A stretch of 64,000 nucleotides of DNA from Bacillus tuaregi. GTDB taxonomy: Bacteria > Bacillota > Bacilli > Bacillales > Cytobacillaceae. Shown here one piece after another: positions 31,918-54,400 of the stretch. The stretch's first letter is position 1. Each line of letters begins with the position of its first letter. The position numbers were made by a program, and so were the translations under genes. The notes under the pieces are model-generated. The model was not told where the DNA came from, did not search any database, and was given only the letters and a program-made list of their open reading frames with translations. The stretch lies in the NCBI RefSeq assembly GCF_900104575.1, contig NZ_LT629731.1:4243111-4307110 (forward strand), read 5' to 3'.

Positions 31918-31920
31918 ATA

Positions 31921-35266: not shown

Positions 35267-35270
35267 TAAA

Positions 35271-35310
35271 TGACTATTCTCTGTTCTGGGAATAGTCTTA
35301 ATTTCTTTTT
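35271..35310 (+). terminator. terminator of the DUF4365 gene
   Basis: GACTATTC / GAATAGTC stem then a T-rich tail. Confidence 0.7.
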
Positions 35311-36486: not shown

Positions 36487-39102
36487 GTGAATAGTTATTT
36501 TGCGAAATTTTACAAGTGTGCATTACAAGTAAATCCTTTTGATTATATTAAATATAGAGGGAAAGAACATTCCTTTACTGAAGAAGAATATAATCACAGT
36601 ATTTACGAAAATTGTATTAAAGAAGGCATTAAGGTTGTTGGACTTGCTAATCACGGTGATGTTCAAAATTCAAAGTCTCTCAGAAATTACCTACAAGAAA
36701 GAGATATTGTCGTTTTTCCCGGTTTTGAAATCTCCACTTCAGAGAGAGTACATATTGTATGCCTGTTTGATGAAAGTACGAATGAACTCCAATTAGAAAG
36801 GTATCTTGGCTCCTTAGAACTTACTGATACAAACGACGGTATTTCACCAAGTAAATTAAGTTTTATCCAAATTGCACAAAAGATAGAAGAATTGGGTGGT
36901 TTTTGGTATGCCGCCCATGTAACACAAGATAATGGCGTATTGAAACTTCATCAATACCCTATTTGGCAATCTAGATTTTTAAAAGCGGCACAAATTCCAG
37001 CAAAACGTCATGAAGTAGAAGACAAATTTATTAATATTTTAAAGAATAAAGACCCCAACTACAAAAAAGACACATCCTTTGCTTTGATAAATGCAAAAGA
37101 CGTAAGTAAACCTGAAGATATATTAATAGAGACTGCAAGTTGTCTGGTTAAAATGTCTGAACCAAATTTCAAATCTTTTAAATTAGCCTTTCAAGATCCT
37201 GAAGCAAGAGTAAGACTTACTTCTGATTTAAATGAGGTTCATCAAACTTCAATTGATCAAATAAATATTTTTGGGGGTTATCTCGATGATTTTGAGATAA
37301 AATTATCACCTAATTTAAATACCATTATTGGTGGACGCGGTACTGGTAAATCCACATTGATTGAATTAATTAGATACGCACTAGACCAAAAACCTAAAGG
37401 AAAAGACGCCAAAAAGACATTTGATAATATTATAGAGGCAAATCTTGGTGCGGGTGGTAGAGTAGAACTTTTGGTAACCTCACATAAGCAATTTGGTAAA
37501 CAGTTTAAAATAATTAAACGGTTCAACAGTCCTATCGCTATTATGAATCTTGATGGTACAAAGTCAAAACTAGAAATACATGACATTCTTCCTAACATTG
37601 AGATATATAGCCAAAACGAAGTTGTTGAGATAACTGACAGTGAAAATGCAAAATTACAAATTTTAAATCGCTTTTTGGGTAAGCATAACAGTTTTGAACA
37701 GGCTAAAGAGGAGAAAAAAGGTAGTTTAAGGAAAAATGCATCTCTCCTTTTAGAAAAATTAGAACGATTTGATGAACTATCTTCCAAGATAAATAAACTA
37801 CCGAGTTTAAAGGAAAAACAAAGAACCTACGACGAACTTGGTATATCACAAAAATTGAATATTCAAGGACAAATAACAACTGAAGAGAGATATATCCTAA
37901 CTTGTAAAGAAAATATAAAAAAACATTCTCTTCAGATTCAAAAAGCAGCAATCCCTTTTAATGATGAGTTTATTGAAAAGACCAAAAATGGTAGTATTTT
38001 TAAAGATTTGAAGCGGGAAATTAATGATTTCAACGAGCGGATTGAGCACCTTCTAGCCCAATACACTGACATAAAATTATCTACTTTAACTGCCCTTGAT
38101 TCTTTAAGTGAGAAATGGCTAGTTGAAAAACAAGGTGCTGAAGTTGAAATTAAAAAAGCAATAAAATCATTAGGGGATCTAAATGGACAGAATGGTCAAG
38201 ATATTGCGAAAGAATATTCCAATACTTTGGAACAAATAGCGAGCATAGAACCTCTTACTCAAGAACTCTCGCTATTAGAACAGGAAATTAGTGATTTAGA
38301 ATATGAAAGGGATAACTTAAGAGAACAATTAAATGTTATAAAAGATACAGAACTTGACACGCTTAGAAAAGCAGTAAAAAAAATCAACAATAAAAAGTTA
38401 CAGGGTAAAGTTAAAATAGAAATATATCCTAAGAAAAATCGAGATTTTTTAATAAACTTCTTAGCACAAGAAAAAGGTCTCGGAGTTCAGGGGCTGAAGT
38501 GGCTTGAAGAGATAGAAACTTTTGATATAACTAGTTTTATAGAAAATGTCAAAAATGGTAAAGATGCTTTATATAACGCTTACAAGTCATATGGTTTACA
38601 GCAAAATAGAGCAGAAATTATATCAGCAATGAGCAAAGAACGGATTTTAGAATTGGAGATTATTGATTTACCAAATATTATTGACATACAACTCAATGTA
38701 TCCTCAGGTAAAGAGGAAAAATATAAGTCTTTAGATAAATTATCAAAAGGACAACAATGTACAGCAGTGTTAAATATACTTATGTTAGAAAATGAAGATC
38801 CTTTAATTGTAGACCAACCAGAAGATAATCTGGATAATGCATATATTGCAAATAATTTAGTAAAAGGTTTAAGGGAACTAAAAATTAATAGACAATTTTT
38901 ATTTGCAACTCATAATGCTAATCTTCCTGTTTTTGGAGATGCGGAACTAATTGGTGTAATGGAAGAAAACGAAGGTACAGGCTGCGTCAATGAAGAGTGT
39001 TTAGGTTCAGTTGATAATAACTACGTAAAAGAAGCAGTTGTAAATACATTAGAAGGCGGAAGTATGGCCTTTATCATGCGGAAAGAAAAATATAACATAT
39101 AA
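36487..39102 (+). CDS. TrlF-like PHP-domain / SMC-type ATPase
   Basis: 871 residues. The GTG at 36487 is preferred (AGGAGG seven bases upstream); an ATG 60 bases upstream is in frame but has no site. Residues about 5-220 form a PHP phosphoesterase domain (VVGLANHGDVQNS, VFPGFEISTSERVHIVCLF, YAAHVT). An SMC/RecF-like ATPase follows: Walker A GGRGTGKST near residue 290, a coiled-coil region to about 690, signature LSKGQQCTAVLN and Walker B PLIVDQPEDNLDN. This is the TrlF arrangement, linked to defence and nucleic-acid conflict systems. Convergent with the 39136-40113 gene. Confidence 0.82.
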   Translation: MNSYFAKFYKCALQVNPFDYIKYRGKEHSFTEEEYNHSIYENCIKEGIKVVGLANHGDVQNSKSLRNYLQERDIVVFPGFEISTSERVHIVCLFDESTNELQLERYLGSLELTDTNDGISPSKLSFIQIAQKIEELGGFWYAAHVTQDNGVLKLHQYPIWQSRFLKAAQIPAKRHEVEDKFINILKNKDPNYKKDTSFALINAKDVSKPEDILIETASCLVKMSEPNFKSFKLAFQDPEARVRLTSDLNEVHQTSIDQINIFGGYLDDFEIKLSPNLNTIIGGRGTGKSTLIELIRYALDQKPKGKDAKKTFDNIIEANLGAGGRVELLVTSHKQFGKQFKIIKRFNSPIAIMNLDGTKSKLEIHDILPNIEIYSQNEVVEITDSENAKLQILNRFLGKHNSFEQAKEEKKGSLRKNASLLLEKLERFDELSSKINKLPSLKEKQRTYDELGISQKLNIQGQITTEERYILTCKENIKKHSLQIQKAAIPFNDEFIEKTKNGSIFKDLKREINDFNERIEHLLAQYTDIKLSTLTALDSLSEKWLVEKQGAEVEIKKAIKSLGDLNGQNGQDIAKEYSNTLEQIASIEPLTQELSLLEQEISDLEYERDNLREQLNVIKDTELDTLRKAVKKINNKKLQGKVKIEIYPKKNRDFLINFLAQEKGLGVQGLKWLEEIETFDITSFIENVKNGKDALYNAYKSYGLQQNRAEIISAMSKERILELEIIDLPNIIDIQLNVSSGKEEKYKSLDKLSKGQQCTAVLNILMLENEDPLIVDQPEDNLDNAYIANNLVKGLRELKINRQFLFATHNANLPVFGDAELIGVMEENEGTGCVNEECLGSVDNNYVKEAVVNTLEGGSMAFIMRKEKYNI

Positions 39103-39108
39103 TACTAT

Positions 39109-39136
39109 AATCCCTCTAAATCTAATTAGAGGGATT
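39109..39136. terminator. bidirectional terminator
   Basis: AATCCCTCTAA / TTAGAGGGATT between two convergent genes. Confidence 0.75.
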
Positions 39137-40113
39137 CATTCTCTATATTTATATGCAAGATTAATGTATGGCTCAATTTGACAGAAGTTCTTTACCCACT
39201 CAAGACGTATATATGCTTCATGTGGATACTTTGTATATTCATAATCCTTTCTTGGATATTTAATACCTATTTCTTTATCTATCTTGTCTTGAATTTCTAA
39301 ACCTAACCTTAAATCCTTCTCTCCAATATGGAGTATTAAACATCTTTGTCTTGCAGTTGTTAGAGTAGCAAACTTTGTTTTCCCCACCCTTTTGTAGCCT
39401 ATTCCATTACTTGTCCCTGCATCTACAACATTAAATTCTTCATTAGCCCAAATATAAGCATCTATTTTTCTTGCAAGTTCTCTTGCTTTTGATTTCTCAA
39501 ACTTCAAAAAAAAATATTCTTTTGACTTTTGCTTGTCACCTATACTATTAATGTTACAAAACTCCTCAAACTGAAATAATAAAAAGCAGGTAACTAAATC
39601 ATTTTTCCTTTCAAAGCATTGACTTTGCTTCTTAAAGAAGTTCCTAATTTCTTTCCACGTTATGATTATTGGTTTATTTTTTACTATTTGTTCATTTGCA
39701 AAGTTCTTTTTATGCCTATTTAATTGCTCTTGTTCTAAATATGAGTTAAAACCTATTTTGTTTTCAATCAATAGAGAAACACTATCAGAGATTATTGCTC
39801 CATCAGGTATACCATATTTCTTAGACGCTCCTGCCTTTAATATGTTACTTTCTGCAATTCCGACTACTGCAGCAATTGATGAAACATTTGAGAGTGCTGA
39901 ACTTAATTGATAACGGTATTCACAATTCTCCATATAAGCGCCTTCAATCCCTAACATCTTTATAAAAGATGTAGTCAACTCAGGAGATGAATGTTGTAAT
40001 ACATTTAAAAATGCTTTTGTTACATTATTTTCAACCTGAAGTATATGTGTCTCTTCGGAACTGTTTTTAGTCTGTCCCCTATAGTAATGAAATATATTTT
40101 GGTAAATAGACAT
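39136..40113 (-). CDS. PD-(D/E)XK-like nuclease protein
   Basis: 325 residues. Residues about 105-135 read YGIPDGAIISDSVSLLIENKIG followed by QLNRH: P-D, then E-x-K, then Q, the nuclease core order. The N- and C-terminal parts are unassigned. Second gene of a two-gene unit with 40206-40850 (92-base gap), convergent with the TrlF-like gene; plausibly part of one defence locus. Confidence 0.65.
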   Translation of the reverse strand: MSIYQNIFHYYRGQTKNSSEETHILQVENNVTKAFLNVLQHSSPELTTSFIKMLGIEGAYMENCEYRYQLSSALSNVSSIAAVVGIAESNILKAGASKKYGIPDGAIISDSVSLLIENKIGFNSYLEQEQLNRHKKNFANEQIVKNKPIIITWKEIRNFFKKQSQCFERKNDLVTCFLLFQFEEFCNINSIGDKQKSKEYFFLKFEKSKARELARKIDAYIWANEEFNVVDAGTSNGIGYKRVGKTKFATLTTARQRCLILHIGEKDLRLGLEIQDKIDKEIGIKYPRKDYEYTKYPHEAYIRLEWVKNFCQIEPYINLAYKYRE

Positions 40114-40205
40114 ATTTTCACTCTTTCTTCGAATCTTTAATCTGCTTTATACCTTTTCTAGATATGAAAGGTATTGAAATACAGTTTAGTTCTTTACATT
40201 AGAGT

Positions 40206-40850
40206 TTAGGTTCCAATTAGTTCAGTAAACCAATAGTCACCATATGAATCCCAGTTGAAAAAGTAATCTTTATTAAGGGTAAAATCAATACCATACCCTC
40301 CAACAGGCGTTGAAAAGTTGGCACCTGAATTTATTCTTGTGCCATCAGATATATCATAAGCCCAACACTTTGCATTCTTATTTAAAGGATAAACTGATGT
40401 TCTGTAATTAGACATAACTAAACTTATACCTATATCAGCAATATTTTGACTGCAATATTGTTCAAGTAAAAATAGATCATAATAAACATCTTTCATAAAA
40501 ATATCATGTGCTCCTCTTGGTCTTCCTGAAGAGGCAAATTCTTTGTAGCATTTCAACTCTATTGCAATTGTATACGTTGACAAATCCAAATCAGTACCTT
40601 TTATTAATATATCTATTTCTTTTGTTTTACCATTAACAAAGCATGTTGACTCCAATTCTATTTCTATTTTCTGTCTTTCATTAAAAATAATTAGCGGTAT
40701 GAATTGTTGCAGAATATATGCATACTTTAATTGCATTGATGCCTCTTTATTAATTTTTATTAACCCACTTCCAACTTTTTGAGAAAATATTTTCCATGAG
40801 TAACTAACAATACCCCTTAACCGTTCAAAAAAGTTCTCGCTTAATACCAT
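40206..40850 (-). CDS. PD-(D/E)XK-like nuclease protein, small
   Basis: 214 residues. NGKTKEIDILIKG followed by YTIAIELKCYKEFASSGRPRGAHDIFMKDVYYDLFLLEQY gives D-x(n)-E-x-K plus a helix with D and Y-D, a restriction-type core. Upstream of 39136-40113 on the same strand. Function beyond nuclease fold unknown. Confidence 0.62.
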   Translation of the reverse strand: MVLSENFFERLRGIVSYSWKIFSQKVGSGLIKINKEASMQLKYAYILQQFIPLIIFNERQKIEIELESTCFVNGKTKEIDILIKGTDLDLSTYTIAIELKCYKEFASSGRPRGAHDIFMKDVYYDLFLLEQYCSQNIADIGISLVMSNYRTSVYPLNKNAKCWAYDISDGTRINSGANFSTPVGGYGIDFTLNKDYFFNWDSYGDYWFTELIGT

Positions 40851-41005
40851 TTTATAATCACCTTTTTTAGTAGGATGTTTCCATAATATAACAGGAAATA
40901 TTATTAATTTGAAGTATAAACAATAACCTAATTAGAAGTCACAACTAAAATTTTACTTTATAATTAAATAAAAATCTTTTTATAACCTCGAAAAGGAGAA
41001 TTTTT

Positions 41006-41107
41006 ATGACTCAGCGAAGAGACCACATAATAAATATTCTGGCAAAAAAATATTATGAATTTCTTTGTTGTCTTAAATATAATGAATCAGTGAATTTTAA
41101 TTTCTAA
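41006..41107 (+). pseudogene. 33-codon frame with strong ribosome site, probable gene start remnant
   Basis: ATG seven bases after AAAAGGAG encodes MTQRRDHIINILAKKYYEFL and 13 more residues before TAA. The start looks like that of a real cytoplasmic protein, but the frame stops early; likely a gene cut off by deletion or rearrangement. Confidence 0.35.
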
Positions 41108-41235
41108 AGGAAAAAATATCAATCATTTTAAGCGTTTTATTTAGGACGCAATATCCATCACTTAATCATGTTCAAAAGTGATTCTAGAGCCATTTAAAAG
41201 AATAATTTTTAAAGGATTATATTCCTAATATAACG

Positions 41236-41268
41236 CAAAAAAGACAGGTTATTTACCTATCTTTTTTT
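41236..41268. terminator. bidirectional terminator hairpin
   Basis: AAAAAAGACAGGT-TATT-TACCTATCTTTTTTT. Confidence 0.65.
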
Positions 41269-41417
41269 ACGATAATAGTATTTAGTAATTTGTAGTATAA
41301 GGTTGATACCAGAGGAGCGGGATCTTTTAGTCAACTATGTTTATAGATATTTCTCCCATGAGATCATTCTAATCTGTCTTTAGTTCATCATTTATATCTA
41401 CAATTTTTGCTATTCAC

Positions 41418-41789
41418 CTAATATTTACTTAACATTTCTTTTTGGTAATCAATTATGCTGTAGATATAATTAAGTTCCTCTAAATTACAGTAATACTTAT
41501 GTCCATCTTCAACAGAGATTTGCACAGGATAGTGTTCACTTGACTTATCTACTTTTACATCAATAAAACCATAAACTCCTGAATGGACAATGTCACAAAT
41601 ATCCTCAACGTAAAAGTTTCTAAGAACCATTATCAAATCCCTCCTGTTAAGAATGAATTCTTCTAAATCACCACCAGTATGAAGTTCTAATAGCACCGTA
41701 TTGCCTGTTGCATATGTTATAGTTACCCTTGATGCACTATTATAAAAATCATTAATTTCTACTAATTCTTCTACACTTAATTTAAGCAA
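41418..41789 (-). CDS. hypothetical protein, 123 residues
   Basis: TTG start at 41787-41789 with AGGAGG eight bases upstream is better than the GTG at 41798, which abuts the site. Beta-rich (SRVTITYATGNTVLLELHTGG) and acidic. No family recognised. Confidence 0.5.
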   Translation of the reverse strand: MLKLSVEELVEINDFYNSASRVTITYATGNTVLLELHTGGDLEEFILNRRDLIMVLRNFYVEDICDIVHSGVYGFIDVKVDKSSEHYPVQISVEDGHKYYCNLEELNYIYSIIDYQKEMLSKY

Positions 41790-41891
41790 TATTACCACCT
41801 CCTTTACCCTTTACTTCAAGATTAAGTCGATTATTACTGCATTTTTAGAACAAGAATTTTATCAACACATTCGGGAATTTAATCAATTAAA

Positions 41892-41918
41892 AAGACAAGG
41901 ATTTCACTCCTCGTCTTC
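41892..41918 (-). terminator. terminator behind island-flanking paralog 2
   Basis: Minus strand AAGACGAGGAGTGAAATCCTTGTCTTTTT, related in sequence to 28409-28436; it overlaps the last codons of the gene. Confidence 0.6.
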
Positions 41919-42269
41919 TTTCAAATAAATAGGATTCAATTTTTCAGCCAGTTTTAGACACTCGAAAATCGCATCATCAACTAGAATGTACTCGCTCAAA
42001 ATGGCATCTATATTTTGCTTAAGACCTTCAAAGGTTGCAAAAACATTGTCTCTAATCTCTGTATTGAAAACTTCGGTTAAAGAATTCTCTTTATTAACCT
42101 TTGCTAGCCTTTTGTCGAACACAAATAAAAAGTACTGATATTGAGCGAACCCCTTGTACTGCTTCCAGTTGATTTTTTTAAAGCGTGTAATAATAAATTG
42201 ATAATCTTCGTGATGGAATTCAACAATTTCATTTTCCATTGGTTTTCTTGAGTGATTTGTTTGCTGCAA
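41904..42269 (-). CDS. hypothetical protein, island-flanking paralog 2
   Basis: 121 residues if the TTG at 42267-42269 is used (GGAGGAG six bases before); an upstream ATG is part of that site. Paralog of the 28439-28798 product over most of its length (see there). The right-hand bracket of the defence island. Confidence 0.58.
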   Translation of the reverse strand: MQQTNHSRKPMENEIVEFHHEDYQFIITRFKKINWKQYKGFAQYQYFLFVFDKRLAKVNKENSLTEVFNTEIRDNVFATFEGLKQNIDAILSEYILVDDAIFECLKLAEKLNPIYLKEDEE

Positions 42270-42511
42270 GTGTATCTCCTCCATTATCTTATGAAAATTT
42301 ATACATGACGACTCTTCCAGATAATGAAGGAAAAACCTTGATTTTTGAAATGAATTTACAAATTGCTTAAAATTGATTTTCCAGCAATATTTCAACCCTT
42401 TAAGACCTTTATGCCGGGTTTATTTTTTAGTTATTTCTAGCAGAAAAGAAATAGGTATTTATACCTATCCATCGTTCTAAACCATTTTTACTTTCTAGTA
42501 TTCTTAGCAAA

Positions 42512-43027
42512 TTAAATAACGAGCATGAAATTATCAATTTTATCTTCAATATCATATTTATCATTTAGGTCTGTATAGTTTTTTAATAGTTTCTGGATTT
42601 CTTCTTTACTCAAAGCATCTAATAAAACATCTTTGAAATCCTGATATTCTTCCTCATCATCTTCCTCAATGTATGTATATTCATCTACATAATCAACTAA
42701 ATCCCATTTTATATACTTTAAAAGTTCCTCTTCGTTATCAAATAAATCCCTGAATCCTACTTTTTCTGCTTGAATTAAAATGTCACCCTCGTTTTCATCA
42801 AAAATAGTTATGGAAAAACCATTATCTTCAAGGTGTTTATATAGTTGGAACGGGGACAGTTCATTGAATTGATTTAATGGGAAATCATATTCATCTACTC
42901 CTGAAACAGTATTCAAACCTACCCGATAGCATCTTCCCTCCTCAGTAATTACAATTTTTTGTCCATGGACTCCATGAATGTATTCTAAAATGAAATCTTT
43001 ACTATCCTTTATTTTAATTTCTTTCAT
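42512..43027 (-). CDS. highly acidic hypothetical protein
   Basis: 171 residues with dense Asp/Glu, especially YIEEDDEEEYQDFKD. ATG behind AAAGGAGG. The charge would suit a DNA mimic (anti-restriction or anti-defence), but there is no family match; inference. Neighbour of tnsD in the same direction, with a 613-base gap. Confidence 0.5.
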   Translation of the reverse strand: MKEIKIKDSKDFILEYIHGVHGQKIVITEEGRCYRVGLNTVSGVDEYDFPLNQFNELSPFQLYKHLEDNGFSITIFDENEGDILIQAEKVGFRDLFDNEEELLKYIKWDLVDYVDEYTYIEEDDEEEYQDFKDVLLDALSKEEIQKLLKNYTDLNDKYDIEDKIDNFMLVI

Positions 43028-43640
43028 AATATATCATCCTCCTTTTCTGGCCGTTTACACGGGTGTTCACCTTCCCATCGTGTAACTGTACGTTCGTTCC
43101 CGTATTCCCCTAATGTATAATTAAACGTCCTCCACCTCCTTTTTTTAATGTGGAAAATAACTCCGTATTAGGAACGGAACTGGTTACTTTTTTTATCAAT
43201 TTGTTCACTAAGTTAGTTGTATCATAAATTCCAAAAGACAATATCGATATAAATAGAAATTCTTGATGGGATATTTTCATTTGGCTATTATATTAAATCG
43301 TGAAAATAGTGAAATTAAATATCTTATTATCAATATCTATTTTTATCAGGAAACGCCATTTAAAAGGGGGTTATTTTTAATCCTATACAATCATATAAGG
43401 AAACCCTTAACTAAAATTATAGAGCCAATTCCCCCTACATTTTTCAGTGATTTAATACTAAATAGACTATTGCAATAAGATATTTAGAATTACTATATAT
43501 CAGAACGGATGAAGTAATTTTTGATTAACTAATAATAAAAAAGAGCAAGATAGAAAATTACTTCCTAGTCTTACTCTTCTTTCTTACTGTTATAAAATTT
43601 ACTAACCTAACCATGAAAAATTAAAGCGATATATACCTAT
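43028..43640. other. gene-free stretch behind tnsD
   Basis: 613 bases. Promoter of the acidic protein gene at the left; terminator of the tns operon at 43537-43578 (minus strand AAGAGTAAGA ... TCTTGCTCTTTTTT). No gene supported. Confidence 0.55.
43537..43578 (-). terminator. terminator of the tnsABCD operon
   Basis: Minus strand AAGAGTAAGACTAG / CTATCTTGCTCTTTTTT. Confidence 0.75.
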
Positions 43641-45548
43641 TTAACGAACCCATAGGCACAAGTTATTCTTCTCAATAATTAATTTTATTGCTTCTTCCTG
43701 AAGGTCTTTCTGGAAGTTTTCCCTAATCCCCGCCTTTCGATATATTCTCCATAAAGATAAATCCTGACCGTCTTTCTCTAACTCTTGTACTGCCCATTGT
43801 AACCTTCTAATTTGAAAATCCTTAATACTCTCAGTTTTGTCATTCAAATACGCTTTTGTCATTGGTAGTTTATCAAGGTGTTTTTCCAATAATGGTCTAA
43901 TTCCAATTCTACTACCTACTGAACTTATCGTAATACGTACGGGCTTCCCGACAGTCAACATATCATTGACTGCAATTCTTACATTTTCGTAAATTTCCTC
44001 GTCCCGTTGCTCCCAGTCAACCCTATGATTATCGTTGACTGTTGATTTTATTTTAGGGGAGTTTCGATTCAACCAGTTCCTATCATTTCGGTACAGCCAT
44101 GTAAACACTCTATTGTTAAGTTGGCGTAATTCTGTTTTACTGCTGTGCGGATACTGTTTTATTAAATTCAGCCATTCTCTTCTGAAACTTTCTTTCTTCT
44201 CAACAGAAGAATCTTCCTCATTGATATTTACAATTTTTTGATCTTCCCCACCTCTTTTTAACCAGTATGTTTTCAAATCTAATTTCTTCGCATATTTTTT
44301 GACTGTGGCTGGGTCTACAGCCAATTGCCTTGCCGTTTCCCTTAAACTTAGTCTTTGATTAGTAAGTTTCTTTAATTTGTTTTCCCATACAGAGCCAAAA
44401 TGCTTAATCTTTGTTATTTTATATCTGTCTTTTTCTTCACGATCAGGGCCCGTTCTGAGGTAAACAAAGCCGCAATCACATATAAAAACACCAATAGGAC
44501 TTTTACTATCTGCACCATACTTTAATTCCATATCGTTAATCACAGGTTTTAAATAATGGCTAGCAGCAGAATTCAAACATGGCCATGGTCTCTCTCCAAA
44601 GGGCTTGTACTCAATTTTTTTATTAAAAATATGTGAAGGAGAAATCCCCAAAAAATGTGTAAATAAAAGATGTCTGATAGGATGGCTTGATTTATTGTTT
44701 CTCCGAATCATTTCATATAGCCAATTACTATTACTATTGAAATCAATGTCGGATTGAACCATTTTTAAAAATCTATGACCATAGAAATTCACGAATGATT
44801 CTAACAACTCCTTTTGTTTTATCCTACCGTTTATATTTGCAATCCCAAGTTCTTTTAGCCTATTGATATACTGTCCTTTAAACCACTTTAATGATTTATT
44901 TTCCATTTTGTTATTTAACAGATAATCAATATCCTGTGCAATATTGATTGCCTTATCCATGATATTGTCAGGGTAATTTAACTTAGGGTAATTTATTTTG
45001 CAAGTTTCTGGAGTGGCTAATCTATAATCATGTTTGTTATAACCCCTAACAGGGACTTGGCTATCATAAAGCGGGGTGTTATGCTCTGGACAAACAAGAA
45101 CTCCCGGTATTTGATGAATTCTATGCCAATACATTTCTCCAAGATTATACATCTCCTCATCGGCACATTTGGGGCAAAATTTAAAGTACTGATTAAACTT
45201 AACTGAACTTGCCATCAAACCAATTCTATTGTAAATACTGCCCCCCTTGTCCCCAATCATAGATTCCTTAACTTTAGCAGCATGTTCAGAAGGCAGGAAA
45301 GCAGCGTAGAATGGATACAGTGTATGATTTGCAATTAAGTATTCTGGCGTATAATGATGGCCAACAGGAAGGTTTTCCATAATACGATAGATATGAGAAG
45401 GCAAGTCCATTATTGCTGTAATACTGTCCGTACCGTATATATCCTTTTGTGTGGCTTTAATACTGACGTTTCCACTACGAACGTGGTATCTCGCCAAAAC
45501 GCTATATAAAAGTTCATCTTTATACGGTACTGGAAAGAAGGTCATCAT
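43641..45548 (-). CDS. tnsD: TnsD (TniQ-family) target selector for glmS
   Basis: 635 residues, long form. Binds attTn7 inside the end of glmS and recruits TnsC. Zinc finger C125-x2-C128 (FCPKCADEE) and C153, H156 (VCPEHNTPLYD), nearly the same numbering as recalled for Tn7 TnsD. Further HTH segment at LSLRETARQLAVDPATVKKYAKKL. Six bases behind tnsC, last gene of the operon. The position of the whole element 22 bases from glmS fits its role. A relic of a related tnsD occurs in both E copies. Confidence 0.92.
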   Translation of the reverse strand: MMTFFPVPYKDELLYSVLARYHVRSGNVSIKATQKDIYGTDSITAIMDLPSHIYRIMENLPVGHHYTPEYLIANHTLYPFYAAFLPSEHAAKVKESMIGDKGGSIYNRIGLMASSVKFNQYFKFCPKCADEEMYNLGEMYWHRIHQIPGVLVCPEHNTPLYDSQVPVRGYNKHDYRLATPETCKINYPKLNYPDNIMDKAINIAQDIDYLLNNKMENKSLKWFKGQYINRLKELGIANINGRIKQKELLESFVNFYGHRFLKMVQSDIDFNSNSNWLYEMIRRNNKSSHPIRHLLFTHFLGISPSHIFNKKIEYKPFGERPWPCLNSAASHYLKPVINDMELKYGADSKSPIGVFICDCGFVYLRTGPDREEKDRYKITKIKHFGSVWENKLKKLTNQRLSLRETARQLAVDPATVKKYAKKLDLKTYWLKRGGEDQKIVNINEEDSSVEKKESFRREWLNLIKQYPHSSKTELRQLNNRVFTWLYRNDRNWLNRNSPKIKSTVNDNHRVDWEQRDEEIYENVRIAVNDMLTVGKPVRITISSVGSRIGIRPLLEKHLDKLPMTKAYLNDKTESIKDFQIRRLQWAVQELEKDGQDLSLWRIYRKAGIRENFQKDLQEEAIKLIIEKNNLCLWVR

Positions 45549-45554
45549 TTCACA

Positions 45555-47207
45555 TCACCCTGTCTGACCGAAATCGTATTCATAACTCTTGATAAAACCC
45601 CCATTACCAAGACCTTCATAGGCTGTTTTGTTTTCCTTACGACATTCAACAACTAAGGTCCTTATATCATTCTCTACAGAAGATTCTTCTTTCTTTCGTT
45701 TTTTATTTCGTTTAGTTGAAGCGGATATACCCTGTATGGTCTTAACAACCAGTTCGTTGATATCCAAATTCGCCTCTTTTTCAGTAATTTCTTCTACAAC
45801 CTTTTGAACCTCGGTAGGTTCAAAATCCAATTCTATAAGTTTCAAAATTGCCTTTTCTTTTATTGAAATACTCATTTCTTGTTCTTTTTTCTTTTGTGTT
45901 CTTTTTATTGCCTCCATCTTCATTTGCAAATCAACAGAAGCCCTTTCTTTTTCCATAAATCCTAAAAAATCTACGTCCACTGTACTGATATCTTCAAACT
46001 TTGCAATCTTACTAATGTTGCCCGACTTCAAAGCCTGAATCATTGGCCTAACAAGTTGCAAATGCTTACTAGCCACCTGACTAATTGTTTCTGGCATTAT
46101 TTCTTCTCTTTCCATCATAATGGCCTCAATTTGAGCCATGGCATAAAGTTTTACAGCGATATCAATAATACCTTGGCTTTCCTCATACAGGATATTTTTA
46201 AAATCATCCGTTAAAGGAATCTGTTTTCTTGTCCATTGATAGCCCCAAAGAGCATTAATCAATAAATCCCAGTTTTGGTCGTTTTTCAACCTATCCCAAA
46301 TCATATCCCCTTGACCACTTCCCCGTCTTGCCTGTCTAAATTCGCTTTGCAAAATAGACAATCCAGCGGGTGTTCCTACTAAAATAACTGGAACTCCAAT
46401 TGTATTAACTAGTGTTACAAAAAAGTTCAGCATCTTCTGATCCCCACCACTTTTGGCTTTACTTAAATGCTGAATCTCGTCTATAACTAAAACGCCCAGC
46501 CCTGTGTTTCTCGCTATTTGAGACATAATCACCAACATATCATTTATAGTTTTTCTACCTAGGCCAAATTTTTTATGATACTCTGTTCCTAATAAATCGT
46601 CTACCTTACGGAAAAATTCCAAGGCTAGTCCTCTCAAGGAAGAATCAAATGGGCAATCAAGTTTAAGCCATACAAGTTGATACATACTGAAATTTACTCC
46701 ATTATAGTCTTTATGAACAATGACTTGAGGGTATAAAGATAAAATCCTATTTAAAGCCGTTGTTTTTCCCATGCCACTTACACCGATTATCGTAAATCCT
46801 GCTGCTGTTGTTCTAAAAACACTATTATTGCTTAATTCACTTTGCAATCCGTTGATATTTCGATGCCCTTCCTGCAAGCCCTGTGCATATCCGGTTCGAA
46901 AAGGATTTCTTGCCAAATATCCCTGCCGAATAACTCTGGAAATTCTACTTTCCAAATCCAAGTGTATCCATAACGGCTGAAAACATTGGAATAATCTTTG
47001 TACCAAATGAATGCGATAATGTTTATCTAGCATTCTTGCTTTTGAATTGTATTCGGCATATATAGCCATTTTTTCAATGGCTTCCTCTGTAGAAAGGATA
47101 GAGGGAAGTGCTTCAATGAAGGGATTCCCTCTATATTCCTCAATAACCTGTTCCCCGTATTCAGCGACAACAGCATCACAACCATTTGGAATGATGACTC
47201 TATTCAT
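45555..47207 (-). CDS. tnsC: TnsC AAA+ transposition regulator
   Basis: 550 residues, matching Tn7 TnsC. Walker A GVSGMGKT at 142-149, Walker B VLVIDEIQ at 239-246, and DMIWDRLKNDQNWD sensor-like region. ATP-dependent matchmaker between TnsD-bound target and TnsAB. The C-terminal 150 residues are charged and helical. Overlaps the end of tnsB by eight bases. Confidence 0.92.
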   Translation of the reverse strand: MNRVIIPNGCDAVVAEYGEQVIEEYRGNPFIEALPSILSTEEAIEKMAIYAEYNSKARMLDKHYRIHLVQRLFQCFQPLWIHLDLESRISRVIRQGYLARNPFRTGYAQGLQEGHRNINGLQSELSNNSVFRTTAAGFTIIGVSGMGKTTALNRILSLYPQVIVHKDYNGVNFSMYQLVWLKLDCPFDSSLRGLALEFFRKVDDLLGTEYHKKFGLGRKTINDMLVIMSQIARNTGLGVLVIDEIQHLSKAKSGGDQKMLNFFVTLVNTIGVPVILVGTPAGLSILQSEFRQARRGSGQGDMIWDRLKNDQNWDLLINALWGYQWTRKQIPLTDDFKNILYEESQGIIDIAVKLYAMAQIEAIMMEREEIMPETISQVASKHLQLVRPMIQALKSGNISKIAKFEDISTVDVDFLGFMEKERASVDLQMKMEAIKRTQKKKEQEMSISIKEKAILKLIELDFEPTEVQKVVEEITEKEANLDINELVVKTIQGISASTKRNKKRKKEESSVENDIRTLVVECRKENKTAYEGLGNGGFIKSYEYDFGQTG

Positions 47208-49350
47208 CTTTTTTATTTAAAGCCTCCTTCTGCTTTCTCAACAACAAATCATACCCTGTATCCCTCATACTTTCAGATTGATTAAAAGGAACAACCTCTG
47301 AGTTTTCTATATTACTTTTATTTAATTCAAAGGCCTCTTCTTCACGTTGAATCATTTTTTCAACAGTACGGTTTTCTCGTATGCTTCCAATCTTGCTTCT
47401 ATTACTGGTTTGATTCGTTTGATTTTGAGATGTTTTCTGTTTAGCCTGATTTACAATTTCCTCGATTTCAGTATTTAAATCAACTTTTGACTGTATTGTC
47501 TTCTCCTTGTGTTGCCTTTCTTTCAGTTTCTCGTATTCTAGCAAATAATCGACTTCTTCAACTACCTTGCCCTTATAACGTTGTTGATGTTCCAATAAAA
47601 AACATTTATCAAAACTCAAACCATCTTCAGCCCGTAAATATATATAATCCATATTTCTTGGATCATAACTTATTTCAATTTTCCAAGTCCCCCGATTCCG
47701 TGCTTTTTCAAACCACCTTTCCTTTAAGGACTGTTTTGAACCATATAGTAACCCTTTATACGCAATCCCTTTTGCAGTTACAGTAGCCTTGCCCGTTGGC
47801 ATGAGATTAAGTTTTACAATATCTTCTGAAGCATGACGTAACTTTCCAGATTTGTTGTTTATCCCCCATTCCCAAAGTTGTATTGGAATAGACTCTATGC
47901 CGTCCTCCACCATCATTTCTTCACGCTGATAGTTTGTAAGATAATGTTGATTATTATGATATAAAACACATTTAATAATCACTTGAGTAAACTGGTAAAT
48001 ATCCAATTGTGCTTCCAAACGGTAATCACGATCCCCACGTTCTTTAACAGGCTTTACTGAACCCGGCAGAAAAGCCTTCGTTCTTGTATTGGTCACTCGG
48101 AAATGCTGTTCAATTATTCCCTTTAAATCAGCCCTGTAAGAGGGTGTATTTAGAATTTTTATTCCGAAGTTATTAATTAGGGGCTCAACTTTACTTCCCT
48201 CTAATTCTCCTCGGTCAGCCAAAATAGATTCTGGAAGATGTGCTGCAGGCCACTCATGTTTTTCAATCTCAATTCCGAAGTCCCGACAAAAACTAACTTT
48301 ATCAGAGGCAGCATTAGCCAAAGCCATCATTGCACCAGCCCAAGATGGACCTTCCAATCCAATATATAGACCTACGATCATTCTGCTATAAACATCCATT
48401 ACAGAATAAATTACAGGTCGTCCAATTATCCAATCACGATTAAATCTTGATAACAGGTACAAGTCGCCTACCGTTGCATCAATCTGATAAACTGCACCGG
48501 GACCTAATGCTTCGGTTGTAGACTCCCCAATAATTGCTCTATGATTTTGGTCATAGTTTTTTCGACCTTTTCTTTGGCTGATTTCCTTTTTTATGTCTCT
48601 TTCCTTTTCAAACCAATATCTAAATTGATTTAGTGAAGGTAACTCTCCATAGGATTTTATTACGGGTATTTCTACTTTTCCTTTCACTTTACTGTCCATG
48701 CTAAAATAATCTTTTAACATTAATTCGTAGGTAAGAGTTAGTGATTTTTCAGCAGAGGAGTAATAATGCTTGTTTATAGCAGACCTAAATATTTTTTTAA
48801 TATTTTCATCAATATTTATTCCTTCTCCTGTAACCTGTCCATGCTTTCTAGGCCTTCCTCTTTTTATTTCACTTGCCCTCTTTTCCTTACCCTTACCCCC
48901 ACAGAGATAATAATCAGGTAAAAGGGCATTTTTGGTTTTACCGCGTTGCCAATACTTCTTTAAGTAGCGAATAACTGTACTTTCATGAACATTGTGGACT
49001 TCACATATTTTTAGAATTAATTTTCTCCTTTCTGCTGAGTGGTAAACAAATGGTTCTAACTTCACGATATCCTTTATGATCTCCCAAGCATTGTCACGTA
49101 AGGACAGATGCTTTTCAGGAATATCATTTTCATTTATCAACCGTCTGAAAGGGTCTTTTTCAACAATAACCATGCTACCCTTGTTAAGTCCGTCTTCTAC
49201 TTCTGAAATATTCATTTCATAGGGCAGAGAGATGGAATGAATATTAAAAAAGTACCCATAATCATGTGCTTTATTAAGCCATAATACCCTTTCAACTACT
49301 TTCTCGTTTTCTGACGTAGTAAAGGAAATAAGATTATTCACTACAAGCAT
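47200..49350 (-). CDS. tnsB: TnsB DDE transposase
   Basis: 716 residues. Catalytic triad D291 (YQIDATVG), D379 (ILADRGELEG) and E414 (LKGIIEQHF), with the same 88- and 35-residue spacings as Tn7 TnsB (D273, D361, E396 from memory). N-terminal HTH domains around residues 100-160 and 230-260 would bind the 20-bp end iterons. Cuts and joins the 3' ends. Intact, so 3'-end joining should be possible. GTG/ATG start overlaps tnsA by ten bases. Confidence 0.93.
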   Translation of the reverse strand: MLVVNNLISFTTSENEKVVERVLWLNKAHDYGYFFNIHSISLPYEMNISEVEDGLNKGSMVIVEKDPFRRLINENDIPEKHLSLRDNAWEIIKDIVKLEPFVYHSAERRKLILKICEVHNVHESTVIRYLKKYWQRGKTKNALLPDYYLCGGKGKEKRASEIKRGRPRKHGQVTGEGINIDENIKKIFRSAINKHYYSSAEKSLTLTYELMLKDYFSMDSKVKGKVEIPVIKSYGELPSLNQFRYWFEKERDIKKEISQRKGRKNYDQNHRAIIGESTTEALGPGAVYQIDATVGDLYLLSRFNRDWIIGRPVIYSVMDVYSRMIVGLYIGLEGPSWAGAMMALANAASDKVSFCRDFGIEIEKHEWPAAHLPESILADRGELEGSKVEPLINNFGIKILNTPSYRADLKGIIEQHFRVTNTRTKAFLPGSVKPVKERGDRDYRLEAQLDIYQFTQVIIKCVLYHNNQHYLTNYQREEMMVEDGIESIPIQLWEWGINNKSGKLRHASEDIVKLNLMPTGKATVTAKGIAYKGLLYGSKQSLKERWFEKARNRGTWKIEISYDPRNMDYIYLRAEDGLSFDKCFLLEHQQRYKGKVVEEVDYLLEYEKLKERQHKEKTIQSKVDLNTEIEEIVNQAKQKTSQNQTNQTSNRSKIGSIRENRTVEKMIQREEEAFELNKSNIENSEVVPFNQSESMRDTGYDLLLRKQKEALNKKDE

Positions 49351-50192
49351 TTTCTTTTTGCCTCCTCATGCGTAATTCGTGGCTTTACTTCAATTATTGG
49401 GTTGGATAGATTTACATTAATTTGATTAGTCATATCTATTCCAATCTGTTTTGAAGCAATTAAGAACTTGAACACAAATAACCCTGTACCCGAATCGTTA
49501 TTAAACTCCTTGTCAAAATCAGCAGTTATCTTTCTAACTGAATGCTTGGCATCTATTAATCTTTCTATTAAAGCGTTACCTAAATAAATCAGTTCATCCT
49601 GTGTAAAGCCTCTTTCAGCATATGAAAATAAGGAAGAATGCACCCATTCAATATTTTTTGCAACCACATTAGAAATTTCTTTTTGCGTAACAACTCCCCA
49701 GTCTATTCCTTTTTCCGTCCAATATCGGCGTTCAATTTCTAATCTTTCTAATGTCATTTTCTTCTCAAGTTCCGAAGCCATTTTTATGCTTCTTGCTAAA
49801 TACAAATTAACTCCATCGGCTCTATTTATTGTTATTAAGAAATTAGTACTTAGTGTATATGGGTATCCACTTTCCTTATCTGTAAAAAGTTTAAAATTCA
49901 AATCTGATTTCTGTTGTATAGTATCTTCAAGATCCAATAGGGGAAAATGTTCTCGTATGTCCACAACCGCATCTTCCCACTCCAACATATAAAAGTATCG
50001 AGCCTGCAAATCCGAAAATAAATGATGTACCCTACCACTCTTCCACCCAAGTATTCTTGATACCCGCCCCATAGAAGGAAAATCCTGAATAGTCAACCAC
50101 GGTTTATATTCCTTACCTGCTCCTTGTCCTCGTCCTTCTTTAACAAACCGATTATATTTATTCTCATTCCAAGATTGATTACGTTTTGTCAT
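49341..50192 (-). CDS. tnsA: TnsA endonuclease with altered active site
   Basis: 283 residues, aligned along its whole length with Tn7 TnsA: KEGRGQGAGKEYKPWLT, SGRVHHLFSDLQARYF, VVDIREHFPLL, YTLSTNFLIT, LERLEIERRYW, GVVTQKEI. TnsA normally cuts the 5' ends. The Tn7 catalytic residues E63, D114 and Q131 are replaced here by Q63, N117 and I136; only K132 (K137) and E149 (E154) remain. Codons are CAG and AAT, so no reading error is needed to explain it in the given sequence. First gene of the operon, next to E copy B. Confidence 0.9.
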   Translation of the reverse strand: MTKRNQSWNENKYNRFVKEGRGQGAGKEYKPWLTIQDFPSMGRVSRILGWKSGRVHHLFSDLQARYFYMLEWEDAVVDIREHFPLLDLEDTIQQKSDLNFKLFTDKESGYPYTLSTNFLITINRADGVNLYLARSIKMASELEKKMTLERLEIERRYWTEKGIDWGVVTQKEISNVVAKNIEWVHSSLFSYAERGFTQDELIYLGNALIERLIDAKHSVRKITADFDKEFNNDSGTGLFVFKFLIASKQIGIDMTNQINVNLSNPIIEVKPRITHEEAKRKCL

Positions 50193-50373
50193 ACTCCACT
50201 TCCTCTACTGCATTATGTATCTAGTACTCTAGTGAATTTTTAGTAACTCGATTCTAACGGGCCGGTTAGACACATTCAATATCCCCCAGCAATCTTTTTT
50301 ATGATTTTAAGAGAACATTATTATCATTCTTCTAACACCTAAGATATTTACTGCAAATAAGTTTTTGTAACTA
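50193..50373. other. spacer between tnsA and E copy B
   Basis: 181 bases with the tns promoter. Contains no TnsB-type iterons, so the tns genes have no end of their own on this side; ends with the 13 inner bases of the bounding inverted repeat. Confidence 0.6.
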
Positions 50374-50380
50374 TGTTAAA
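50361..50380. repeat. 20-bp inverted repeat bounding the inner DNA, right copy
   Basis: GTTTTTGTAACTATGTTAAA, exact complement of 12852-12871. Confidence 0.85.
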
Positions 50381-50551
50381 TTAGAATAAAGTTTGCAGAA
50401 ACGAGTAAATACGTCCATCCCTTGCCATATATAGCCTCAAAGGCATTACCCAACTTATTTCATGAGAATAAAGTTTGCACAAAGATTTGCTCGTTTTAAG
50501 TCAGAAATGAAATCAATAAATAATAAAGATAAGAATAAAGTTTGCTTAAAC
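50374..50551. repeat. left end of E, copy B
   Basis: Three spaced GAATAAAGTTTGC sites as in 10662-10839. Confidence 0.8.
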
Positions 50552-50729
50552 ATAGAGGAGAGATCACCAAACAAAGAGAGTAACCTAAACCTCATGAAGG
50601 CACCTTACGGTGACACCTGAACCAAAACCGATTCTTGACTTCTGATTGTTATAGGGTAATGCAGTTCTTTACTACCCTTGGAATACGGTATAATTGCCAT
50701 GTTAATTAGTTATCAAGGGTGGGCATTAA

Positions 50730-51056
50730 ATGATTTACACAATTGTATTGTTTATATTTGCTGGATTTGCAGAGATTGGTGGAGGTTATCTTATCTGGCT
50801 ATGGTTAAGAGAAGGTAAGCCATTTTATTGGGGTGCTTTCGGAGGACTAGCCTTAGCGTTATATGGTATTATTGCCACATTTCAAACATTCCCATTATTC
50901 GGCAGAGTATATGCTGCCTATGGAGGAGTATTTATTGTTCTTTCTGTATTGTGGGGATGGGGGATTGATAAAAGAACACCTGATTTATACGATTGGATAG
51001 GTGCTGGTATATGTTTAGTGGGTGTTTCAGTAATGTTATTTGCACCTCGCCAATAA
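50730..51056 (+). CDS. ynfA: YnfA-family (UPF0060) small membrane protein, copy B
   Basis: Identical in translation to the product of 11018-11344: 108 residues, four membrane helices, [16 protein letters not shown] and [12 protein letters not shown] motifs. Carried by the second E copy, so the host has two copies of this gene from this locus. Confidence 0.85.
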
Positions 51057-51276
51057 AGTAAAAAGACAAGAATACATTGAAGGGAAATCAACTAACGAAG
51101 GTGTATCCCGAACCGTGTAGGTGTGAGTTTGAAAGAAGGTCTTACGATGTCCACTATCCTCCTAAATCCCTTTTCCCTCTTACTCTTTTTCATTTTTCTA
51201 AAATGGAACTAATTTTTAATAAGTAGAGTTATGTATTTGGGAGACAGGCTTTTCTGTTTATTTTCACCTTTATCAA

Positions 51277-51324
51277 ATAAAATAGAACCGAGAAGAGGTA
51301 TCGTAGATACATTTCCCCGATTCG
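51277..51324 (-). terminator. recurring terminator, copy B
   Basis: Duplicate of 11565-11612. Confidence 0.55.
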
Positions 51325-51714
51325 TTAGACTAATACATCAGCCTAATACATAGTTGGCTCCCTCTTCCCCTGCCTTGGACAGTTACTTAATGTATAAGAG
51401 AGTTGTAAACTTGCAGATACAGATAATCCATTAGTATACCTTACGGTTTCCCTTGTACCACCACAATTCACCTACTTACCACATGACCTATGCCTAATCA
51501 TTTATTTATATATTTATTTATTTTTTATGGGCGAGTGCTTCTTTATGAAGCATGTTATACACTTCTGGACGTGGGCTTCCCTTGATTGAGTTGGTTTGAA
51601 TGCTCTTCAGAGAAAAAGGGGGACGTCCCTTGTGTTGTACTTATGCAGGGATTATCCTCCCCGTAAGGGTAAGCCTGATCCTCTCAGGGAACCTCGTTAA
51701 GACTCAGTTTTATA

Positions 51715-51762
51715 TAAAAAAGCCCTGTAATTATATCCATACTCTGGATACACTCAGGGGGC
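51715..51762 (-). terminator. terminator beside decayed right end, copy B
   Basis: Duplicate of 12003-12050. Confidence 0.65.
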
Positions 51763-51765
51763 TCT

Positions 51766-51829
51766 GTATAAACTTTTTTCTTTATAAACAGATTTTTTCC
51801 CATACTTCAAACTTCAGTTTGGTTTGACA
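51766..51829. repeat. decayed internal right end in E, copy B
   Basis: Duplicate of 12054-12117, ending TTTGACA. Confidence 0.6.
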
Positions 51830-51935
51830 CCCACATATAATGAACACATTTTAAAAGCAATACCACAATCAACATGCATCCTTATCCATTATTTTCACCT
51901 TTGGCTGTGAAAGTAATTCTCAAACCTTCTCCAAA

Positions 51936-51980
51936 TAAAAAAACCGAGAAAAGATATCCTAGATACGTTCCCGATTCGAT
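51936..51980 (-). terminator. recurring terminator, copy B
   Basis: Duplicate of 12224-12268. Confidence 0.65.
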
Positions 51981-52161
51981 AGTCTATATATCAGACTCAT
52001 ACATAGACTGGCTCCCACTTCCCTTTTTTGAAAAATCATTTTCAGATTGTAAGTGGGGGATAAGTGAGACTGACACTTTATTAACAGAAGTTACATAGGA
52101 GACAATAAGAAACCTTACGGTTCACCAATACCACCCAGTTCCCTTGTGATATCCCCGTATA

Positions 52162-52224
52162 GACTTGGCTGTCATACAGTGGTATCCCATGCTCTGGACA
52201 AACAAGAACCCCCGATACCTGATG
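52162..52224 (-). pseudogene. tnsD relic in E, copy B
   Basis: Duplicate of 12450-12512. Confidence 0.85.
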
Positions 52225-52454
52225 ACTCCTCTTACATGACCAATCCCTTATTATTTATATATATTTATTTCATAGGAGAAACCACTTGAAGCATTTTACA
52301 CGTTACAGGGTGTGGGCATTCGTTCATTGAATTAGTTTCGGGTCTGTATACCTTTAGAGAGACATAGGGACATTCCTTTCACCCTACTTACTCAAGGGTT
52401 ACTCTTCCCGTAAGGGAATTCCCTACAGATACCTCATTATGGCCATAAATCCAC

Positions 52455-52502
52455 ATAAAAAACCCCGTTTATACATCCATATACTGGATACACTCACGGG
52501 GC
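52455..52502 (-). terminator. right-end terminator facing glmS, copy B
   Basis: Duplicate of 12743-12790. glmS is transcribed leftward into the element, so this hairpin now serves as the glmS terminator and insulates the cargo. Confidence 0.75.
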
Positions 52503-52505
52503 TTT

Positions 52506-52570
52506 ATGCAAACTTTATTCTTCTTATGCAGACTTTTTTCTTATTCTGCAAACTTTATTTTGTTTTAACA
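52506..52570. repeat. right end of the element next to glmS
   Basis: Three abutting 20-base iterons then TAACA at the CAAAG duplication. Confidence 0.82.
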
Positions 52571-52575
52571 CAAAG
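52571..52575. repeat. target-site duplication CAAAG, right copy
   Basis: Partner of 10657-10661; 22 bases separate it from the glmS stop codon (52598-52600). Confidence 0.85.
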
Positions 52576-52630
52576 GGGTGTTTCTTCGCAACATTTATTA
52601 CTCAACCGTAACAGATTTTGCTAGATTACG
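52571..52630. other. attTn7 region of glmS
   Basis: Insertion point plus the last codons of glmS, the segment that TnsD recognises in Tn7. The glmS reading frame is undamaged. Confidence 0.8.
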
Positions 52631-54400
52631 CGGCTTATCGACATCGCAGTTGCGGTGCAGGGCTGCGTAGTAAGCGAAGAGCTGCATTGGGATTACAGAG
52701 ATAAGAGGTGTTAATAGTTCATGCACCTCCGGAATCACGAAACGGTCATCAGCCATTTCAAGTCCCTTCATGGAGATAATACATGGATTTGCTCCGCGGG
52801 CAACGACCTCTTTTACATTACCGCGAATACTTAAGTTCACACTTTCCTGTGTAGCTAAGGCAATAATTGGAGTACCGTCTTCAATTAAAGCAATCGTTCC
52901 ATGCTTTAACTCTCCACCTGCAAAGCCTTCAGCCTGAATATAAGAAATTTCCTTTAATTTCAATGAGCCTTCAAGACATACATAGTAGTCTACGCCACGG
53001 CCAATAAAGAAGGCATTTCGAGTTGTTGCAACATACTCACTAGCCATTTTTTCAAATTCTTCTTTGGTGTCACAAAGGACCTCCATCGCATTAGCAACAA
53101 TTCCAAGTTCTCGAGAAAGATCGAAGTCGACTTCGATATTCTTGCTCTTTGCAACCACTTCAGCGAGGATTGCCAATACTCCTAATTGAGCTGTATAGGC
53201 TTTTGTAGAAGCAACCGCAATTTCAGGACCAGCATGCAGCAATAATGTATAGTCTGCTTCTCTCGATAGCGTGGAGCCGGGAACATTTGTAATCGTTAAT
53301 GCTTTATGGCCAAGCTCTTTAATTTGAACCAGAACAGCACGGCTATCAGCAGTTTCACCGCTTTGTGAGATAAAAATAAACAGCGGCTTTTCAGATAATA
53401 ATGGAATGTTATAGCCAAACTCACTAGCAATATGAACTTCGACAGGAACGGCAGCCAATTTCTCAATAAACTGCTTTCCTACTAGGCCTGCATGATAAGA
53501 TGTTCCAGCAGCAATAATATAGATACGATCGGCATCTTTCACTGCCTTCACAATGTCCTCATCAACTTCCAATTCGCCATTTTCACTGCGATACTTTTGA
53601 ATAATTTTACGTAGTACTAGTGGCTGTTCGTCAATTTCCTTCAGCATAAAATGCGGATAGGTTCCTTTTTCAATATCACTAGCATCCAATTCAGCACGGT
53701 ATGGGTTACGCTGTACCACTTCACCGGAAAGTGTTTTGATGGTTACTTCGTTTTTCGTAACAATAACGATTTCCTTATCCATGATTTCAACAAAACGGTC
53801 TGTAACCTGTAGCATTGCCAATGCATCACTGGCAACGACATTGAAATCTTCCCCGATTCCAACTAAAAGAGGGCTTTTATTTTTGGCTACATAGATGATA
53901 TCCGAATTTTGTTCATCCAGTAAGGCTATCGCATAAGAACCCTTCAATAGCCCAAGAGTTTGACAGAAGGCGTTCTCCACATCTGTTCCTTTGTTAACCA
54001 ATAACTCAATTAGCTGAACGATAATTTCAGTATCTGTATCACTTTGTAATGATACATCCATTAAATACTCATTCTTAATTAATTCGTAGTTTTCGATTAC
54101 ACCGTTATGAACAAGTGTAAAACGGCCAGAATTACTTTTGTGCGGATGTGCATTTGATTGACTTGGTACACCATGTGTAGCCCAGCGTGTGTGACCAATA
54201 CCTGTATTAGCTAAAAGATCATAATCCACGATACTACGTAGATCAGCAATACGACCTTTTTCTTTAAACACTTGAACACCATCATCATTCATTAATGCGA
54301 TACCGGCAGAATCATATCCTCTATATTCCAGCTTTTCTAATCCCTTTAATAAAACCTCTTTTGAATCTTGATTACCAATATATCCTACTATTCCACACAT
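52598..54400 (-). CDS. glmS: glutamine-fructose-6-phosphate aminotransferase
   Basis: 600 residues, normal length. Makes glucosamine-6-phosphate from fructose-6-phosphate and glutamine, first step to UDP-GlcNAc and the cell wall. N-terminal glutaminase starts [11 protein letters not shown] with the catalytic Cys2; [19 protein letters not shown]; two SIS domains ([34 protein letters not shown]) and the C-terminal [11 protein letters not shown] loop. Controlled by the glmS ribozyme at 54611-54760. Its 3' end is the Tn7 target. Confidence 0.98.

Follow-up and report, generated by a model that had tools for sequence, protein, structure and literature searches.

A Tn7-like system of Bacillus tuaregi with a TnsA lacking catalytic acids likely integrates its own plasmid beside glmS as a replicative cointegrate

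A Tn7-like tnsABCD operon was identified next to glmS in a 64,000-bp stretch of the Bacillus tuaregi genome (assembly GCF_900104575.1, contig NZ_LT629731.1, positions 4,243,111 to 4,307,110; hereafter the window). The operon was found to lie outside a 2.2-kb mini-transposon, here called E, and its TnsA lacks the catalytic acidic residues of Tn7 TnsA. Two copies of E in direct orientation flank a long segment that includes the operon, and a single 5-bp duplication encloses the whole. This layout (target, element, donor, element, target) matches that of a replicative cointegrate left unresolved in attTn7. The system is likely to integrate the whole tns-bearing plasmid into attTn7 in this form. 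Coordinates are collected in Table 1.

The tnsA open reading frame (ORF) encodes a protein of 283 amino acids with both Pfam TnsA domains. Residues 1-187 were aligned by phmmer with the solved Tn7 TnsA (1f1z, 1t0f) at an E-value of 1.5e-47, and an AlphaFold2 model (mean predicted local distance difference test score, pLDDT, 89.7) had 1t0f as its top PDB match (E 7.1e-23). Positions are given below as Tn7 TnsA residues; alignment rows without aspartate at position 114 are termed dead and those bearing it live. Where cut-and-paste Tn7 has the catalytic residues E63, D114 and K132, the window protein has Q63 (codon CAG), N117 (codon AAT) and K137, and E149 is kept as E154. An earlier, sequence-only reading of the window had reported both replacements and both retained residues, and the alignment to Tn7 TnsA bears it out. 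Its statement that Q131 is I136 was mistaken: position 131 of Tn7 is a valine (aligned with I136) and the Tn7 glutamine is Q130 (aligned with S135). Positions 87, 138 and 177 are more acidic in dead rows, but none neighbours position 114 in sequence, and compensating acidic residues were dismissed as a candidate. The conserved R134 was rejected as a new active-site residue, as most live Firmicutes rows also carry arginine there.

The dead state had been presented in that reading as a property of one element. The state itself was upheld; it was found to be clade-wide and old, and the position of the tns operon outside the mini-transposon had been missed. In an alignment of the query and the best 120 of 664 database matches (121 rows), position 114 was serine in 47 rows, threonine in 41, asparagine in 33 and aspartate in none. 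Position 63 was glutamine in 73 rows and glutamate in 48, and K132 was lysine in 121/121. No close relative with both E and D was thus present among these best matches. The absence of D throughout supports the predicted loss of 5'-end cutting, as does, independently, the cointegrate-like layout of two identical mini-transposons with an outer 5-bp duplication. A second clade, made up of the TnsA of another element of the same genome (element B; P0121) and its nearest 35 relatives (P0122-P0156), has T or S at position 114 in 36/36. A TnsA tree was built from 87 chosen rows (40 of 168 proteins, 45 loci, the window and Tn7) with columns 63 and 114 masked and the truncated tnsA of a third element of this genome (element A) excluded. 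A single branch (99/96) separates 59 dead from 28 live rows. This split requires one change, is present in 99% of 200 bootstrap trees, and was matched by none of 500 shuffles. The simplest reading of the tree, whose root is unsure, would be one ancient change at position 114 followed by several E63-to-Q changes.

The ratio of nonsynonymous to synonymous substitution rates (dN/dS) was 0.06-0.17 across the 21 pairs of seven close tnsA genes, in all seven of which the active-site codons CAG, AAT and AAA are fixed; the set excludes L016 because it is identical, L023 because it is in two pieces, and L024, at 70%. tnsA is therefore under purifying selection and the protein is maintained. A sequencing error or recent inactivation of the gene was rejected on the loss of D114 across clades, the single tree branch and purifying selection.

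The remaining tns motifs, listed as intact in the sequence-only reading, were recovered. The TnsB triad D291, D379 and E414 has spacings of 88 and 35, which we take to be those of Tn7 TnsB. TnsC carries GVSGMGKT and VLVIDE as Walker motifs, TnsD carries a CPKC..CPEH motif, and a TnsB-type DDE transposase, a TnsC ATPase and a TnsD/TniQ protein are thus encoded in one operon. It begins 181 bp beyond the left end of the glmS-proximal copy of E, and the right end of that copy lies 27 bp from the glmS stop codon, as expected for attTn7. Judged by the sequences of TnsB, TnsC, TnsD, ends and target, the element is Tn7-like; it departs from Tn7 in the catalytic residues of TnsA.

Both copies of E have TGT..ACA termini. 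One end holds three AATAAAGTTTGC-type sites set apart from each other; at the other end, three 20-bp sites abut. E thus shows the inverted ends and transposase-site arrays typical of Tn7-like elements, together with their 5-bp target duplication. The tns genes lie outside each copy, yet would count as inside with the outermost ends of the composite as the boundaries.

Table 1. Features of the window referred to in the text (positions within the window)
Feature	Position	Strand	Evidence or remark
E, glmS-proximal copy; TGT..ACA termini, ynfA gene	50374..52570	+	repeat search, site reading
E left end, three spaced TnsB-like sites (proximal copy)	50380-50553		
E right end, three abutting TnsB-like sites (proximal copy)	52504-52559		
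ynfA inside proximal E	50730-51056		
E, distal copy	10662..12858	+ (direct orientation)	identical to the proximal copy over 2197 bp
Outer 5-bp duplication CAAAG, left	10657..10661		
Outer 5-bp duplication CAAAG, right	52571..52575		
Inter-copy segment, 37,515 bp: tnsABCD, tyrosine recombinase, Rep-like gene, cargo; putative integrated plasmid	12859..50373		
tnsA, Q63 and N117 replacing E63 and D114	49341..50192	-	ORF, Pfam, alignment
tnsB, DDE triad D291 D379 E414	47200..49350	-	ORF, domain, motif
tnsC, Walker A and B motifs	45555..47207	-	ORF, domain, motif
tnsD, TniQ and TnsD Pfam domains	43641..45548	-	ORF, domain, motif
glmS, 3' end is the insertion target	52598..54400	-	ORF
glmS ribozyme	54603-54768		
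Rep/primase-like protein	26003..27457	+	weak PHROGs matches; relatives on plasmid records
Tyrosine recombinase, candidate resolvase	24254..25150	-	domain search

The same arrangement was observed in other elements. Nine loci with a TnsA 70-100% identical to that of the window were found in a scan of species genomes, and E-like sequence lies between glmS and tnsA in all six that reach glmS (L019-L024; right end only in L024). Near-identical repeat pairs spanning a dead tns operon were found in seven elements: the window, element B, G004, G005, G006, G007 and G404, the last having a full pair despite a TnsA only 58% identical. The outer 5-bp duplications match in five of the seven pairs (window CAAAG, G004 CTATT, G007 ATTAT, G006 AAAAT, G404 TCTCT), where about 0.0016 matches per pair would be expected from base composition. 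Identical direct copies around a donor with a single outer duplication, the mark of a cointegrate, are thus found in these five, with a gap of N in the copies of G006. Within an element the copies are identical over 2197, 3181, 2805 and 462 bp in four pairs and, in G006, in the two blocks that can be compared (stretches of N lie elsewhere); those of G005 differ by one base and those of B are 99.9% identical. When different Bacillales elements are compared, the best aligned piece of E shows 76-92% identity.

Lone and terminal copies of E were also encountered. G775 has a single E, about 1.1 kb long, at glmS; it is flanked by AGATT on either side, and the 20 kb read contained no tns match. The two ends of a 37,657-bp contig of another genome (G001 C27) are formed by the first 71 and the last 71 bp of E, and the draft contigs of L016, L017, L018 and G535 start in or right beside E.

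Several features of E and of the related loci are recorded here as observations in their own right. The mostly non-coding part of E (51281-52538) holds units spaced by about 740 bp with palindromic cores of the AACCGAG..GATAC type, which recur in relatives. An Rfam scan of E gave one match, at chance level only. The inner junctions of the two copies (12859-12871 and 50361-50373) are inverted repeats, TAGTTACAAAAAC and GTTTTTGTAACTA, not seen in G404; from these, E is perhaps seated within a plasmid palindrome, possibly a recombinase site. Contig 16 of the window genome carries two further tandem tns sets at the same site (4195950-4253684). Set A has a shortened tnsA that retains TTDF. Set B has a dead TnsA between its own 2-kb direct repeats, which lie partly in the window at 8548-10574. 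This pair, DR1 (4202375-4204402 and 4251658-4253684; 99.9% over 2028 bp), starts just past the shortened tnsA of the older element A. In G449, two equal-scoring tnsA matches, each in two pieces, lie 20.1 kb apart on contig C8 (117491-118254 and 137608-138371), possibly a duplicated element.

Genes of plasmid type were found between the copies. In the window these are a tyrosine recombinase and the Rep/primase-like protein, the latter recognised by weak profile matches; its relatives occur in 29 of 72,556 plasmid records, the best listed at 27-29% identity. D5-type primases are encoded in element B and in G006, ParM-like actins in B and in G404, and a tyrosine recombinase also in G006. Eight replication, partition and recombinase proteins from the window, B, G006 and G404 were used as probes. 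Leaving the window and B apart, plasmid-type genes were detected near the tns operon in 8/16 dead and 0/8 live neighbourhoods, a comparison that is tilted because all probes come from dead elements; G006 and G404, themselves probe sources, were also matched by probes that originate elsewhere. In G498, G686 and G262, none of which has visible repeats, the 2 kb or so upstream of tnsA contain a match to a tyrosine recombinase. The inner segment of the window also holds cargo. A dihydrofolate reductase (DHFR) region at 16035-16639 (ORF 16058-16555, minus strand) matches dfrG from plasmids of Enterococcus and Staphylococcus at 99.3% identity over 605 bp, and an AlwI-type restriction endonuclease with two D12-class adenine methyltransferases is encoded at 28934-34097.

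Live elements served as controls. No direct repeats spanning tnsA were found in any of seven read over 60 kb each (G123, G057, G376, G147, G100, G578, G708), nor was one seen in the 31 kb read of G291. The end of glmS lies 143-180 bp before tnsA in 9/25 live rows, whereas glmS falls inside the 1.5-kb flank in 0/20 dead rows; in the system described here, 2-4 kb of E separates the two genes.

Several results weigh against plasmid integration by cointegrate formation. Two of the seven pairs, G005 (CTAAT and ACAGT) and B, have no matching duplication. No replication or partition gene was recognised in the G005 segment, which matched none of the eight probes. Among the 72,556 plasmids, no circular record with a window-type TnsA or E was found; the best plasmid TnsA was only 42.5% identical and D-bearing, and plasmid matches to E were confined to ynfA. 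Viral contigs gave no match to a window-type TnsA or E. Repeats spanning tnsA were seen in only eight of 25 dead elements read, seven pairs being near-identical and that of G375 diverged (93-96%). The other 17 showed none, 12 of them over 40-60 kb (G789, G464, G498, G643, G558, G686, G654, G089, G262, G061, G411 contig 26 and G547) and five over 14.5-38 kb, where a pair could escape (G434, G761, G695 and G411 contigs 32 and 33). Repeats are therefore not the rule, and a general link from dead TnsA to direct repeats was unsupported. Thresholds varied among elements (at least 10 kb apart, 50 bp and 90% in one scan; any spacing and 50 bp in another), and G659, the same record as G007, was counted once. 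When the roughly 9 kb preceding tnsA served as query against the whole genome, G089 gave no second copy, and G789 gave nothing beyond a match of 73 bp at 80%. A general search for element ends resolved few elements, and no count was drawn from it. As a separate observation, an imperfect hairpin of the GCCATTGACAC..GTCAGTGGC type lies about 200 bp or less upstream of tnsA in three Clostridia-type dead elements (G375, G089 and G061; loci L090, L095 and L099).

A further point against the cointegrate is that homologous integration would yield the same structure. A solo E would first be present at glmS, and an E-bearing plasmid would then be recombined in by RecA, giving identical copies and the same outer duplication; a solo E with its duplication does exist at glmS in G775. 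The arrival of that solo E with a non-cutting TnsA would, however, itself need a cointegrate and its resolution, and five independent pairs carry their own E type on both sides. Homologous integration is considered unlikely.

Less probable still is that the whole 41.9 kb (10662-52570) is an ordinary Tn7-like transposon moved by its outer ends, with E duplicated inside it long ago and TnsA cutting through an unrecognised active site. The unit is indeed flanked by an outer left and an outer right end and one duplication, E63 is kept in 48 of the 121 rows, and most dead rows have acquired an acid at position 138. But the inner ends are intact, E is identical within an element yet diverged between elements, E exists alone in G775, and no acid was gained beside position 114 in sequence. 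Recent decay of a dying tnsA, or a collapsed or duplicated repeat, is very improbable: draft assemblies are known to mishandle repeats and several contigs end at E, but the dead state is constant throughout a deep clade whose tnsA is under purifying selection, and five elements share the layout with differing matched duplications.

Integration as a cointegrate could proceed as follows. TnsB would cut only the 3' ends of E on a circular plasmid, and TnsC and TnsD would steer the joining reaction to the DNA immediately downstream of glmS. With the 5' ends left uncut by TnsA, the donor would stay attached, and replication would copy E to give chromosome-E-plasmid-E-chromosome with an outer 5-bp duplication; an end structure of chromosome-E-segment-E-chromosome with that duplication was directly seen in the window. 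Either RecA or the element's own tyrosine recombinase would then recombine the two copies, freeing the plasmid and leaving a solo E, a step matched by the solo E with its duplication in G775. We infer that the natural TnsA is non-cutting, that the copies arose by replication, that the inner segment was once a circle, and that resolution is the work of RecA or the tyrosine recombinase. As its gene is under purifying selection, TnsA probably persists as a structural, non-cutting partner of TnsB and TnsC. A cutting TnsA would move E alone and leave the tns genes behind, so loss of cutting likely keeps the machinery mobile.

The window element resembles Tn7 and live Firmicutes Tn7-like elements in its proteins (TnsA fold, TnsB triad, TnsC and TnsD), and like them it has arrayed end sites, is inserted just after glmS and is bounded by a 5-bp duplication. 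The live Firmicutes elements keep E63, D114 and K132 (25/25 rows), whereas the window element is without D114. In IS26 translocatable units and long terminal repeat (LTR) elements, copies of the mobile part stand as direct repeats on either side of the inserted DNA, and the enzyme is encoded inside the repeat or between the LTRs of an RNA-copied element. The flanking direct repeats are alike here, but plasmid-borne Tn7 enzymes would act on E. Type V-K CRISPR-associated transposons (CAST) and tnsA-less Tn5053-like elements share the expected lack of 5' cutting and the cointegrate products. They lack tnsA, whereas in the window TnsA is present and conserved with its acid lost, and the tns genes lie outside a short unit. 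The window system would work like such a cointegrate-forming, TnsA-less relative.

In the accessible text of one study, wild-type ShCAST, without TnsA, gave more than 85% cointegrate reads, and the TnsA active-site mutant D90A of the V. cholerae CAST more than 95% (PMC8188705). D90A is likewise a point loss of the nuclease, but a laboratory mutant as opposed to a natural, clade-wide state. Benler et al. 2021, in the parts available, predicted a replicative pathway where tnsA was lost and a resolvase gained, with a linked tyrosine recombinase (PMC8649781). Their prediction was drawn from loss of the tnsA gene, with core genes within the boundaries. Island BCEGI-1 of Bacillus cereus ATCC 10987 also lies directly after glmS with two tnsABCD sets; compared by description only, direct repeats and the state of the TnsA active site go unmentioned in the accessible portion (PMC2359905). 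Neither a natural dead-TnsA clade nor tns genes outside the ends are named in the available text of Benler et al. (PMC8649781) or Faure et al. (PMC10293859). A literature search of titles and abstract openings, which covered a minority of subscription papers, gave no natural dead-TnsA clade and no such layout, and novelty is therefore provisional.

We lean slightly towards a broader view, in which a deep clade of Tn7 relatives has turned into a plasmid integrase. A module of 0.5-4 kb bearing both ends would lie outside the tns operon, with TnsA disarmed but kept; plasmids would enter attTn7 as cointegrates and exit by recombination between the repeats, in an LTR-like cycle with solo modules as scars. 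Such islands may be misread by boundary finders built on the assumption that the tns genes lie between the two ends. In the standard account, TnsA is the nuclease behind Tn7 cut-and-paste transposition. A large natural clade that keeps TnsA without its catalytic acid means that the structural role of the protein could be studied apart from cutting. The layout also offers a reason for the loss, as tns genes outside the ends would travel only if TnsA is non-cutting, and it points to a way in which whole plasmids may enter a safe chromosomal site; the one in the window would bring a dfrG-like DHFR gene (99%) and a restriction system.
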